Shown here: in pieces, positions 12,121-61,632 of the stretch | Position numbering within the stretch: the first letter of the stretch is position 1 | Layout of the letters: each line of letters begins with the position of its first letter | Assembly: GCA_900317325.1 (NCBI GenBank) | Contig: ONGE01000013.1 | Span: 1 to 64,000, forward strand | Length of the DNA: 64,000 nt | Origin: an uncultured Prevotellaceae bacterium | GTDB lineage: Bacteria; Bacteroidota; Bacteroidia; Bacteroidales; Muribaculaceae | Reading direction: 5' to 3' | Notes under the pieces: model-generated | What the model saw: only the letters and a program-made list of their open reading frames with translations | Databases searched by the model: none | What the model was told of the DNA's origin: nothing | Made by a program: the position numbers and the translations under genes

Positions 12121-12150
12121 AATGCGAATTTCGCGAATTAAACGAATTTA
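12121..12150 (+). repeat. GCGAATT repeat, copy 1 (left of the dockerin/SUMF1 gene)
   Basis: Thirty bases sharing 22 positions with 13431-13460 in the same orientation: common core ATGCGAAT, then CGCGAATT, then CGAATT. The two copies flank the gene at 12351-13352. The first copy also forms the left arm of a palindrome. Confidence 0.6.
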
Positions 12151-12184
12151 TAGGCTGAAGCCAGTTCGTTAAATTAGCGTAATT
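12127..12184. repeat. Imperfect palindrome, 22-base arms
   Basis: Left arm 12127-12148 and right arm 12163-12184 pair at 18 of 22 positions around a short loop centred on GGCTGAAGCC. Just to the right, AATTCGTAGTT (12181-12191) is the exact complement of the AACTACGAATT core of the inverted repeats around the GxxExxY gene at 59.8 kb. Confidence 0.55.
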
Positions 12185-12277
12185 CGTAGTTGCGATTCAA
12201 GAATGGGTCCATCAGTGGGTTTCTGGTAAATTTTGGTGGTTTTTTTGTTTTTAGGGGCTTTTCTCTGAAAAAATAAT

Positions 12278-38108: not shown

Positions 38109-38191
38109 GGGCAAGCAGCGCGGATGCAGTCAGAATATTCAGATGAATCAGTTGTTTTCTTGACTGATTATAACATTTTTTTGTCGTTATG

Positions 38192-58441: not shown

Positions 58442-59785
58442 ATGAAAGAAAGTCCGGTTCAAGAGGCGAAGAAACGCTCGCCATGGTTGTGGATTCCGAC
58501 GCTCTATTTTGCCGAGGGTATCCCTTACTTCGTCGTGAACAACATTTCGGTGCTGATGCTTGCCAAGATGGGTGTTCCTAACGGACAGATGGCGCTCTTC
58601 ACCAGTTTGCTCTACCTGCCGTGGACCATCAAGCCCTTCTGGAGCCCGTTTGTTGACATTATCCGCACCAAGCGGTGGTGGACCATCTCGATGCAGGTGC
58701 TCATGAGCATCGCGTTTATCCTGCTCACGCTGACGATGCCCAAACCCGACGCGGCAACCATCGCATCGGGGCAGACGCCCATCAGCATGTTCACCATTAC
58801 GCTCATCTTGTTCGTGATCACAGCCTTTGCCAGCGCAACACATGACATCGCTGCCGACGGCTTCTACATGCTGGCATTGCGCCAGAACGAGCAGGCCGCC
58901 TTTGTGGGCATCCGCAGCACGTTCTACCGTCTATCGTCAATCTTCGGCCAGGGTGTTCTGGTCGCCATCGCTGGTGCCATCGAGCTGAAGAATGGCAATA
59001 TTCCCATGTCATGGACAATCACGATGGCTGTTGCCGCAGTGCTGTTCAGTGTCGTCACACTGTATCACACTTTTGCCATCCCACGGGTGAAAAGCGATGC
59101 CTCAACCCTCAAGGATGAGAAGCCCACGGTGGGTGCAATCTTCAAGGAGTTTGGCCGCACTTTTCTGACATATTTCACCAAGCCTTATGTCTGGCTGGCC
59201 ATTGTCTTCATGCTGCTCTATCGCTTGCCCGAGGCTTTCCTGATCAAGATGTGTACCCCCTTCCTGGTCGCCAGCAAGGATGTCGGCGGACTGGGGCTCT
59301 CAACGGCCGAGGTGGGCATCGTCTATGGCACTATCGGTGTGCTGGCGCTGACCATCGGTGGTATCCTGGGTGGCTTGTTTGCCGCTAAGGTGGGCTTGAA
59401 GAAGTCCTTGTGGTGGATGGCGGCCTGCATGACGTTGCCTTGCGCCACGTTCGTCTACCTGGCTGTCGGACAACCGACTAACCTTGTTGCCATCTCGGTT
59501 GCCATTGCTATCGAGCAATTCGGTTACGGTTTCGGCTTCACGGCTTACATGTTGTACATGATGTACTTCAGCGAGGGTGAGTTCAAGACGTCGCATTATG
59601 CCATCTGCACCGCCTTCATGGCCTTGAGTATGATGATTCCGGGCATGTTTGCTGGCTATATCCAGGAAGCCATTGGCTACGCCAACTTCTTCTGGATGGT
59701 TATGGTCTGCTGCATCGCCACCCTGGTTGTGACCTACATGGTCGATCGCCGCATCGACCCCAACTACGGCAAAAAGAACGACTAA
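58442..59785 (+). CDS. ampG: AmpG-like muropeptide permease (MFS)
   Basis: 447 residues, about 12 membrane helices. N-terminal WLWIPTLYFAEGIPYFVVNN and LPWTIKPFWSPFVDIIRTKR match the AmpG/MFS signature region; SATHDIAADGFYMLALRQNE is typical of AmpG-type importers. It would bring anhydromuropeptides or MurNAc-containing sugars into the cytoplasm. Position between SpoIID/LytB and NamZ genes supports this substrate class. Confidence 0.82.
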   Translation: MKESPVQEAKKRSPWLWIPTLYFAEGIPYFVVNNISVLMLAKMGVPNGQMALFTSLLYLPWTIKPFWSPFVDIIRTKRWWTISMQVLMSIAFILLTLTMPKPDAATIASGQTPISMFTITLILFVITAFASATHDIAADGFYMLALRQNEQAAFVGIRSTFYRLSSIFGQGVLVAIAGAIELKNGNIPMSWTITMAVAAVLFSVVTLYHTFAIPRVKSDASTLKDEKPTVGAIFKEFGRTFLTYFTKPYVWLAIVFMLLYRLPEAFLIKMCTPFLVASKDVGGLGLSTAEVGIVYGTIGVLALTIGGILGGLFAAKVGLKKSLWWMAACMTLPCATFVYLAVGQPTNLVAISVAIAIEQFGYGFGFTAYMLYMMYFSEGEFKTSHYAICTAFMALSMMIPGMFAGYIQEAIGYANFFWMVMVCCIATLVVTYMVDRRIDPNYGKKND

Positions 59786-59794
59786 CCCATATTT

Positions 59795-59830
59795 TTTAAC
59801 TACGAATTTTTCTGATATTTCTGATTTTGA
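59795..59830 (+). repeat. Terminal inverted repeat, left end of the GxxExxY unit
   Basis: 36 bases beginning TTTAACTACGAATTTTTCTG. They match the reverse complement of 60235-60270 at 29 of 36 positions. Within it TTTCTGAT occurs twice. It ends one base before the ATG. Confidence 0.75.
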
Positions 59831-59831
59831 T

Positions 59832-60233
59832 ATGGAAAGGTTCTTATATGAAAAAGAGTCATATGCAATCAGGGGATGCTTGATGAGCGTTTTCAATGAA
59901 CTGGGTTCGGGTTTTCTTGAGAAAGTATATCAAGAAGCCCTTGAAAGAGAGTTTATTGAAAACGAAATTCCCTATGAGCGAGAAGCTCCACTCAGAATCA
60001 TGTATAAAGGTCTTCCACTTCGGCAGGAATATTTTGCGGATTTCATCTGCTATGACAAAATTATCGTAGAATTAAAGGCCGTTACTGAATTAACAGAAGT
60101 GCATTCAGCACAAGTTTTTAATTATCTGAAGGCTACGGGTTTTGATTTAGCTATTCTCGTGAATTTTGGAGAGAAGCAATTAAAGATTGAACGTCTTTTC
60201 AATTTCATGAAGAAAAGACAGATTCAACAATGA
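59832..60233 (+). CDS. GxxExxY protein (PD-(D/E)XK-like family)
   Basis: 133 residues, cytoplasmic. Carries the defining motif GSGFLEKVYQEAL (GxxExxY) near residue 28. A PD-(D/E)XK-like core: QEYFADFICYDKIIVELKAV gives D...ELK, the nuclease-type acidic/lysine set. Family size about 130 matches. It differs sharply from its neighbours: a 60-base sample at 59941 has 23 G/C, against 40 in a sample of namZ at 60361, and codons are AT-ending. Exactly bracketed by inverted repeats (59795-59830, 60235-60270), so it looks inserted. Function of the family is unknown. Confidence 0.85.
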   Translation: MERFLYEKESYAIRGCLMSVFNELGSGFLEKVYQEALEREFIENEIPYEREAPLRIMYKGLPLRQEYFADFICYDKIIVELKAVTELTEVHSAQVFNYLKATGFDLAILVNFGEKQLKIERLFNFMKKRQIQQ

Positions 60234-60234
60234 T

Positions 60235-60270
60235 TAATAATCAGAAAAATCAGATTAATCCGTAGTTTAA
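60235..60270 (-). repeat. Terminal inverted repeat, right end of the GxxExxY unit
   Basis: Inverted partner of 59795-59830 (29 of 36 positions). It starts one base after the TGA at 60231-60233 and ends 15 bases before the namZ ATG. Confidence 0.75.
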
Positions 60271-60285
60271 TAAATAATCAGTTGT

Positions 60286-61632
60286 ATGAAGAAGATATTG
60301 TTTATAGTAGCGTGTGTGATAGTGGCGGTGACGGCAGGTGCTGTTGTCAAGCCGGGTGTTGAAGTGCTGCGTGACGGCGGTTTCGCCCAACTGCAGGGCA
60401 AGCGCGTGGGACTGGTGACCAATCCCAGCGGCATCGACAACAACCTCAAGAGCACCGTCGACATCCTCAACGAGGCGCCCGGCGTGAAGCTCGTGGCGCT
60501 GTTCGGTCCTGAGCACGGCGTGCGCGGCAATGCCCATGCGGGAGACGCCGTGGGCGATGCTGTGGATCCGCTGACGGGCATCAAGATGTATTCGCTGTTC
60601 GGCAAGACACATGAGCCGACGGCCGAGATGCTCAAGGACATTGATGTCCTGGTCTATGACATCCAGGACGTGGGTTGCCGCAGTTACACCTTCTATGCCA
60701 CGATGGGCGTGTGCATGGAGGCATGTGCCAAGTACGACACCGAGTTCATGGTACTTGACCGTCCCAATCCGCTGGGAGGCAACAAGGTTGAGGGTAACCT
60801 CGTCGAGGACGGCTACTTCTCCTTTGTGAGCAAGTATTCCATCCCCTATATCTACGGTCTCACACCCGGCGAACTGGCCAAGTTCCTCAACGGGGAGGGC
60901 ATCATCGCCGAGCGTTCCAAAACAGGCCATGGCTGCAAACTCACCGTCATCCCCATGGAAGGCTGGAACCGTGACATGAAGTTCCGCGACACGGGTATGC
61001 CTTGGGTAGCCCCCTCGCCTCAGATTCCCACGCCCGAGAGTGCCTTCTTCTACCCCGTATCGGGTATTCTGGGCGAGTTGTACATCTTCAACACCGGCAT
61101 CGGCTACACGCTCCCGTTCCAGACCTTTGCTGCATCATGGATCAATGCCGACTCGCTGGCGATGCGCATGAATGCGCTCAACCTGCCGGGCATGAAATTC
61201 CGTCCCATCAACTACAAACCGTTCTTCGCCCTGAGCGTGGCAGTGGACAAGTCGCTGCAGGAAGTGCACGGCGTGCAGACCTACATTACCGACCTTGATG
61301 CTGCCGACCTATGCCTGACGCAGTTCTATTTCCTTCAGGTCATCCACGAGATGTATCCTGATGTGGAACTGTTTGAACAGAACCCCAAGCGCTATGCCAT
61401 GTTTGATAAGGTGTGCGGCAGCAAGGAAATCCGCGAGCGCTTCATCAAGCGCTACAAGGTAGCCGATATCGCCGACTATTGGAACAAGGATGCCGCCGAC
61501 TTCGTCAAGCGCTGCCACAAGTATTACATCTACAAGCCCGCTTTGAAGGATAAGATGCGCATCAATACACTTCCCGCAAAAAAGAAAATGGGACAAATGA
61601 AAGGTTCTGTCGTCTCAAAAGATAAAGATTGA
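60286..61632 (+). CDS. namZ: Exo-beta-N-acetylmuramidase NamZ (DUF1343)
   Basis: 448 residues. Signal peptide about 1-20 (ILFIVACVIVAVTAGA). Family motifs in order: GKRVGLVTNPSGID, LFGPEHGVRGNAHAG (Glu at about 76, in the catalytic pocket of known NamZ), VLVYDIQDVGCRSYTFYATM, LDRPNPLGGNKVEG, YGLTPGELAKF. NamZ enzymes release MurNAc from the non-reducing end of peptidoglycan glycans (established for Bacillus subtilis and Tannerella). Located in the periplasm or outside. Stop lies 5 bases before the start of the NagX-like gene. Confidence 0.92.
   Translation: MKKILFIVACVIVAVTAGAVVKPGVEVLRDGGFAQLQGKRVGLVTNPSGIDNNLKSTVDILNEAPGVKLVALFGPEHGVRGNAHAGDAVGDAVDPLTGIKMYSLFGKTHEPTAEMLKDIDVLVYDIQDVGCRSYTFYATMGVCMEACAKYDTEFMVLDRPNPLGGNKVEGNLVEDGYFSFVSKYSIPYIYGLTPGELAKFLNGEGIIAERSKTGHGCKLTVIPMEGWNRDMKFRDTGMPWVAPSPQIPTPESAFFYPVSGILGELYIFNTGIGYTLPFQTFAASWINADSLAMRMNALNLPGMKFRPINYKPFFALSVAVDKSLQEVHGVQTYITDLDAADLCLTQFYFLQVIHEMYPDVELFEQNPKRYAMFDKVCGSKEIRERFIKRYKVADIADYWNKDAADFVKRCHKYYIYKPALKDKMRINTLPAKKKMGQMKGSVVSKDKD

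Follow-up and report, generated by a model that had tools for sequence, protein, structure and literature searches.

The locus described here raises the question of why a small, AT-rich gene stands between two long inverted repeats with a single base to spare on either side, and whether gene and repeats together form a mobile unit. It lies in a stretch of 64,000 nucleotides from an uncultured Muribaculaceae bacterium, referred to below as the window, between an AmpG-like transporter gene and namZ. A minimal mobile unit had been proposed in the first-pass annotation, whose description of the locus proved accurate. The GxxExxY gene (59832..60233, + strand) encodes a protein of 133 aa; its ATG, at 59832, is one base past the left repeat (59795..59830, + strand), and its stop codon (60231-60233) is one base short of the right repeat (60235..60270, - strand), which is an inverted copy of the left one. 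The reported match of the arms at 29 of 36 positions, ungapped, is exact, and only 7 to 14 matches remain when the right arm is shifted by 1-6 bases in either direction. A repeat finder delimits the arms as 59792-59826 and 60239-60273 (35 nt, 83% complementary). Their local inverted score is 44, whereas none of 5000 shuffles exceeds 32, and they are the sole inverted pair in the 64 kb with a score of at least 38 at a distance of 200-1500 bp; three shuffled windows contained none. The 60-base samples cited for an AT-rich gene in a GC-rich run were recounted as 23/60 (38%) and 40/60 (67%) G/C, and over whole features the GC content is 36% for the GxxExxY gene, 55% for the ampG-like gene, 56% for namZ, and 54% for the window. 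The arms are not plain 36-mers; they are arrays of roughly 9-bp units, AACTACGAATT-TTTCTGATA-TTTCTGATT in the left end, and the end pattern matches at C21:59798-59826 and, on the - strand, at C21:60239-60267.

The annotated GxxExxY motif and PD-(D/E)XK-like core were borne out by profile searches. The protein matches TIGR04256 (GxxExxY) with 143.1 bits (cut-off 35) and PF13366 (PDDEXK_3) with 135.4 bits (cut-off 22); these are the only domain matches of the bracketed gene, and no HUH/Y1 tyrosine transposase domain was found in it. For comparison, 152 GxxExxY genes were collected from the genus of the window genome, its order, and other phyla, each with a match longer than 80 aa and flanks of 170 bp or more; an initial survey had used 91 of 93 unique genes, two being too near contig ends, and had left out matches below 90 aa. 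The proteins of 144 of the 152 genes (no stops, 110-175 aa) were reduced to 97 by an 80% identity filter, and 96 were aligned after L266 was omitted. Residues G27, E30, Y33, D70, E80, K82, and N111 are invariant in these 96 proteins, and Q94 and Y98 are nearly so. Together they include an E-D-ExK-QxxxY arrangement, as in RecB/Cas4-like nucleases. The structure model has a mean pLDDT of 94.5; among solved structures, its closest folds are those of Cas4 SSO0001 (E 3e-4), LHK-Exo, and lambda exonuclease. The fold matches are moderate, with TM scores of about 0.5 and at most 0.56 among the best matches listed; a sequence search of solved structures gave a best E of 0.23. By its conserved catalytic residues and modelled fold, the protein is placed in the PD-(D/E)XK superfamily and is a predicted nuclease. 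The gene is under purifying selection: seven pairs have a dN/dS ratio of 0.04-0.16, and an eighth, L072/L073, has 0.00. Two pairs with very low dS gave 0.49 and 0.71.

GxxExxY genes were found in 161 of the 297 relatives searched, with up to 12 copies per genome. The possibility that they are phage or plasmid cargo was rejected: at E 1e-5, no match was found among 50,697 phage records and 8 among 72,556 plasmid records. A role as a defence gene was likewise set aside, as PADLOC returned one weak match (E 0.019) and the best PHROGs match had an E of 0.0046.

The bracket is a property of the family. The flanks of the other GxxExxY genes, where shared inverted ends had been predicted, carry an inverted match with a score of at least 30 in 106 of the 152 cases, against 3 of 85 control ORFs from the same loci; no inverted match of that score was found at the remaining 46. 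The bracket recurs round this protein in several phyla. The ends are thus of the same kind as those in the window, but the expectation of the same end sequence did not hold: the sequence varies across lineages, with a shared outer box recognized by eye (AACTACGAATT, AACAACTGATT, AACCACAGATT, AATGCGAATT, AACAAACGGATT). Inside the ends, boxes of the form C[AGT][AG]A[AT]T are spaced by 9 bp in 178 cases and by 10 bp in 28. Their orientation is consistent from each end: a pair 8-12 bp apart is present in 43% of the left ends (14% on the wrong strand) and in 38% of the right ends (11% on the wrong strand), whereas distal flanks have one in 2% of cases and shuffled ends in 1%. The best period is 9 bp in 69 of the 152 genes and 10 bp in 17, with other periods in 14 and none in 52. 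Among the 85 control ORFs, 65 have no period and 20 have some (9 bp in 9, 7 bp in 8); some of these periodic control ORFs may adjoin solo ends.

The ends from Treponema and Fibrobacter have a short hairpin after the box; its loop is TAAC, and its stems vary in sequence but are complementary (GTAGC/GCTAC, AGGTC/GACCT, GATTTTCC/GGAAAATC, and others). TAAC is the commonest four-base loop on stems of at least 5 pairs, in 23 of 304 ends, with 8 for the next loop and a maximum of 2 in shuffled ends; on visual inspection, those in L024, L065, and L075 seem to be incidental. An element in the sister genome (L341) has the hairpin CCGCCC-TAAC-GGGCGG. Two Treponema copies, L095 and L109, are 95.7% identical over 510 bp, have different flanks, and share the same termini: the similarity starts at AACAAACGGATTTGTTC and stops at its complement. 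These near-identical copies at different sites mark the termini. By eye, the copies L109 and L301 adjoin apparent type I restriction genes (HsdM/HsdS). Co-divergence of protein and ends was considered as a proof of specificity and was dropped, the overall correlation being too weak: protein identity and end similarity give a rho of 0.080, with 0.092 as the best of 200 permutations. End similarity climbs clearly with protein identity only above about 60-70%.

Copies of the ends also occur without the gene, and the expected solo ends were found in the window's own genome. A strict end-type pattern has 7 matches there, two of which are the arms of the window gene, and 0 for the reversed pattern; AACTACGRATTNNNCKRATT with one mismatch allowed has 38 matches and 0 reversed. 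From the 38 matches 30 loci were taken, of which 27 were placed. An inverted partner with a score of at least 22 is present on the inner side of 12 of the 27 placed matches, at nine separate places, and on the outer side of none; 22 of the 27 are outside long open frames. One doublet (L393) is 60 bp long with perfect 24-bp arms. The window itself contains a gene-less inverted doublet at 12125..12191 (L390, score 29, no strand assigned), with AACTACGAATT at one end and a variant at the other, which is common to the window genome (G000) and its sister genome (G025). It also contains, by eye only, a lone right-end-like piece with GCGGATGC and AATCAGTTGTT at 38118..38157 (- strand). Five inverted pairs with a spacing of 60-62 bp occur in two Treponema genomes at places other than those of the detected gene copies.

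Across 101 genomes of the genus, the end pattern has 1406 matches against 15 for the reversed control and is present in 68 genomes. The median count is 25.5 where a close gene is present (best E < 1e-40, n = 32), 2 where only a remote one is (n = 57), and 0.5 where there is none (n = 12). The excess with a close gene was also seen within a clade of 38 genomes (p 0.002); in the remaining 63 it was weak (p 0.04). Three genomes (G039, G069, and G071) have 24, 33, and 26 copies of the motif and no TIGR04256 match. Some doublets of the C20 type sit inside a different, IS-like MITE with outer repeats GAGGGTGTGTCATAATT or similar. A MITE with such outer repeats and internal GxxExxY-type doublets (L353-L360, G025:C17) is present in G025 and absent from G000 at two sites. 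Because some C20-type doublets lie inside a polymorphic MITE, their number need not reflect GxxExxY.

Empty versions of the ampG-namZ junction had been named as a further check, and they are common. Of the 99 genomes of the genus with a namZ match, 90 were used; a GxxExxY gene is upstream of namZ in 17 of these 90 loci (the copy is broken in G053 and G020), an ampG-like gene without GxxExxY in 71, and no ampG in 2. The 71 gene-less junctions are shorter than 50 bp in 36 cases, longer than 260 bp in 12, and of intermediate length in 23. An internal palindrome beats all 200 shuffles in 8 of these 23, and 199 of 200 in L141 and L145; 7 of the 8 (L120, L125, L126, L127, L133, L135, and L140) have ends of the GxxExxY-arm kind by eye. 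Ten gene-less palindromes had been counted by eye at this junction, a count that the shuffle test did not fully bear out. The junctions with more than 260 bp of other DNA include L123, L150, L164, L171, L172, L182, L184, L186, and L192; since they make up 12 of 71, the site looks permissive. Just before namZ and outside the right arm, the window has an end-like piece of another type, AATCAGTTGT (60274..60284, - strand, by eye), the complement of ACAACTGATT. The same piece precedes namZ in several relatives, and it is possibly the relic of an end of that other type.

The gene also differs in presence between sisters. G025, in which 11 of 17 aligned blocks are at least 90% identical to G000, has seven GxxExxY copies, of which five were compared with G000: two are shared (ampG-namZ and C17:147090) and three are absent there. 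At the position of the C38:68996 copy, G000 has 41 bp of unrelated DNA. For the C20:128997 copy, the best-matching site in G000 has a gene-less palindrome of another type, and doublets of the gene's own ends are present at other places in that genome. At the position of the C17:198918 copy, G000 has a gene-less palindrome. The comparison of sister contigs revealed these polymorphic sites and no clean insertion of a doublet of the window gene's end type. Target duplication, also on the list of checks, was not seen by eye at three junctions (L109, L095, and the G025/G000 site), and clean empty sites are few. Three of the four checks of the first-pass annotation spoke in its favour.

A similar bracket surrounds an unrelated family in the same genomes. 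Genes for four-helix-bundle proteins (TIGR02436, S23p family) of the same genus (L309-L338) have an inverted bracket score of at least 30 in 21 of 29 cases, where two of the 29 ORFs (L311 and L330) are probably the wrong ORF. Their brackets have a period of 7 bp in 19 of 28 (one of the 29 is short of flank), with units such as TAGTTTC and CAGTTGT. The period goes with the gene family, and therefore the encoded protein, not a third party, is probably linked to the ends. The view of a single minimal element has to be widened on these grounds: the ends vary by lineage, and the four-helix-bundle genes are similarly bracketed. The contrast between 9 bp and 7 bp hints at a broader group of small genes inside inverted arrays.

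With moderate confidence, the GxxExxY gene and its two arms are read as one copy of a REPIN/MITE-like family of miniature mobile elements whose nuclease probably acts on the ends. The arms would be recognition ends, made of oriented arrays of about 9-bp units and in some lineages of a hairpin, and the gene-less left-plus-right doublets and lone ends, mostly intergenic, would be non-autonomous relatives or relics. Cutting by the nuclease would most likely take place at the ends or close to them, perhaps on single-stranded or folded DNA during replication, and would promote their movement or duplication. Several observations stand behind this reading: the bracket is family-wide, gene-less doublets have the same outward-facing ends, the gene is present or absent between sisters, near-identical copies share their termini, and the gene, with its invariant active site, is under purifying selection. 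Other results weigh against it: target duplication was not seen at the three junctions inspected, 46 of the 152 genes have no inverted match of the required score, three genomes have the motif and no TIGR04256 match, protein and ends co-diverge only weakly, four-helix-bundle genes have a similar bracket, some control ORFs are periodic, several C20-type doublets belong to a MITE, two pairs have high dN/dS, and the fold matches are moderate. Mobility, which the first-pass annotation had proposed from one locus, is well suggested. We infer the transposition of the element as DNA, the role of the nuclease as its agent, and every chemical step.

Other readings assign the ends to a different agent or to no mobility at all. 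A different enzyme, either a RAYT or an IS transposase, may move the ends as a REPIN/MITE family, and GxxExxY would then be a passenger or a captured gene. The three genomes with 24-33 end copies and no GxxExxY gene are in line with this, as are some doublets inside a MITE with its own terminal repeats; yet it is rather unlikely, given that the ends track the gene family (9 bp for GxxExxY, 7 bp for the four-helix-bundle genes in the same genus), that the bracket surrounds the same small protein in several phyla, and that genomes with a close gene have more copies of the motif. It is highly improbable that the arms are host regulatory or terminator sequences of a resident gene. The left arm is placed where an operator or attenuator would be, but this reading is disfavoured because gene-less copies of the ends are common, at many sites; it is also at odds with the differences in gene presence between sisters and with near-identical copies at different sites.

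An RNA element like the intervening sequences (IVS) of 23S rRNA, in which the arms would pair in the transcript, RNase III would cut the stem, and the ORF would be a passenger as S23p is, was judged quite unlikely. In its favour, S23p-family genes are bracketed in a like manner (21 of 29 scored), and the Coxiella IVS has a terminal inverted stem of 28 bp, with heptamer repeats ahead of the ORF (PMC4990558). A constrained stem should give own arm matches above cross matches; at orthologous sites the own/cross values are 54.2/57.9 (n = 8), 32.0/35.5 (n = 4), 23.6/24.2 (n = 5), and 57/59 (n = 2), and an IVS-type RNA element is therefore disfavoured. These four verified groups give no compensating-change sign of a kept stem; a fifth, mixed group, with a single pair confirmed to share its site, leaned the other way (33.2/28.8, n = 6). 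Gene-less doublets are also common, against this reading. An IVS within rRNA itself was rejected, as the loci scanned contain no rRNA signature motif and positions 59500-60600 have no Rfam match. A homing-type invader, inserting into the loop of pre-existing palindromes that its nuclease cuts, would account for ampG-namZ and two further sites, at each of which the gene in one genome corresponds to a gene-less palindrome in another. It is very unlikely, however, in view of a Treponema gene copy that has both a left end and, after the stop, an entire doublet, more than the splitting of one palindrome would leave, and of the C29 palindrome, whose type differs from the gene's own ends.

Among known systems, the favoured miniature element resembles REPIN-RAYT in layout. 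The likeness to these systems as described in PMC3116915 and PMC3733652 (further background in PMC12306157) extends to repeat ends on both sides of one small gene, inverted doublets dispersed between genes without a gene of their own, tandem end arrays, and hairpins in some ends. The earlier analogy to REP-associated transposases is therefore apt for the layout, but the elements are not members of that system because the protein is unrelated: GxxExxY is a predicted PD-(D/E)XK nuclease, whereas RAYT is an HUH/Y1 transposase. REPs have an outer 5' GTAG, while the ends in the window begin with AACTACG and other lineages are without CTAC/GTAG altogether. RAYTs are described as single copy in PMC3116915, in contrast to the several GxxExxY copies per genome. 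The 23S rRNA IVS share a small ORF between long inverted short-repeat ends and a selfish appearance (PMC4990558), and related-looking brackets surround TIGR02436 genes in the same genus; the differences are an unrelated protein, 9-bp rather than 7-bp arrays, a position outside rRNA in the loci scanned, and a stem that shows no sign of being maintained. Insertion sequences and their MITE derivatives are similar in having terminal inverted repeats, one gene, and gene-less derivatives, but here no known transposase domain was seen, nor any target duplication at the three junctions inspected, and the ends are repeat arrays, not fixed terminal repeats. Cas4 and RecB-family nucleases share the E-D-ExK-QxxxY pattern and the fold, whereas GxxExxY is about 130 aa and stands alone, with no CRISPR or helicase partner in the loci examined.

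Tentatively, and as a somewhat doubtful extension, the GxxExxY elements may be miniature mobile DNA of a new class, in which a stand-alone Cas4/RecB-like nuclease would recognise inverted 9-bp arrays, folded as hairpins in some lineages, and would move or copy both its own gene and the gene-less doublets, as an analogue of REPIN-RAYT with unrelated chemistry; a parallel class, outside rRNA, would comprise the four-helix-bundle (S23p) genes and their 7-bp arrays. The link to specific DNA ends provides the GxxExxY family, which is without an assigned function, with a role that can be tested. If true, this would add a type of enzyme to those thought to propagate REP-like repeats, and it suggests a search for the partners of palindromic repeats without a known transposase, such as the CGTC repeats described in PMC3733652. 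In the passages retrieved from the open-licence literature, GxxExxY has passing mentions only, and no description of the ends of GxxExxY genes was found.

The ends also occur in tandem. Four tandem 51-bp end copies with GGCATCCGCG, gene-less, are present at G000:C12:18437-18640 (L362), and in the ampG-namZ locus of G005 (L173), several tandem ends of the AACCACAGATTAAAC type lie 3' of the gene, with similar spacers.
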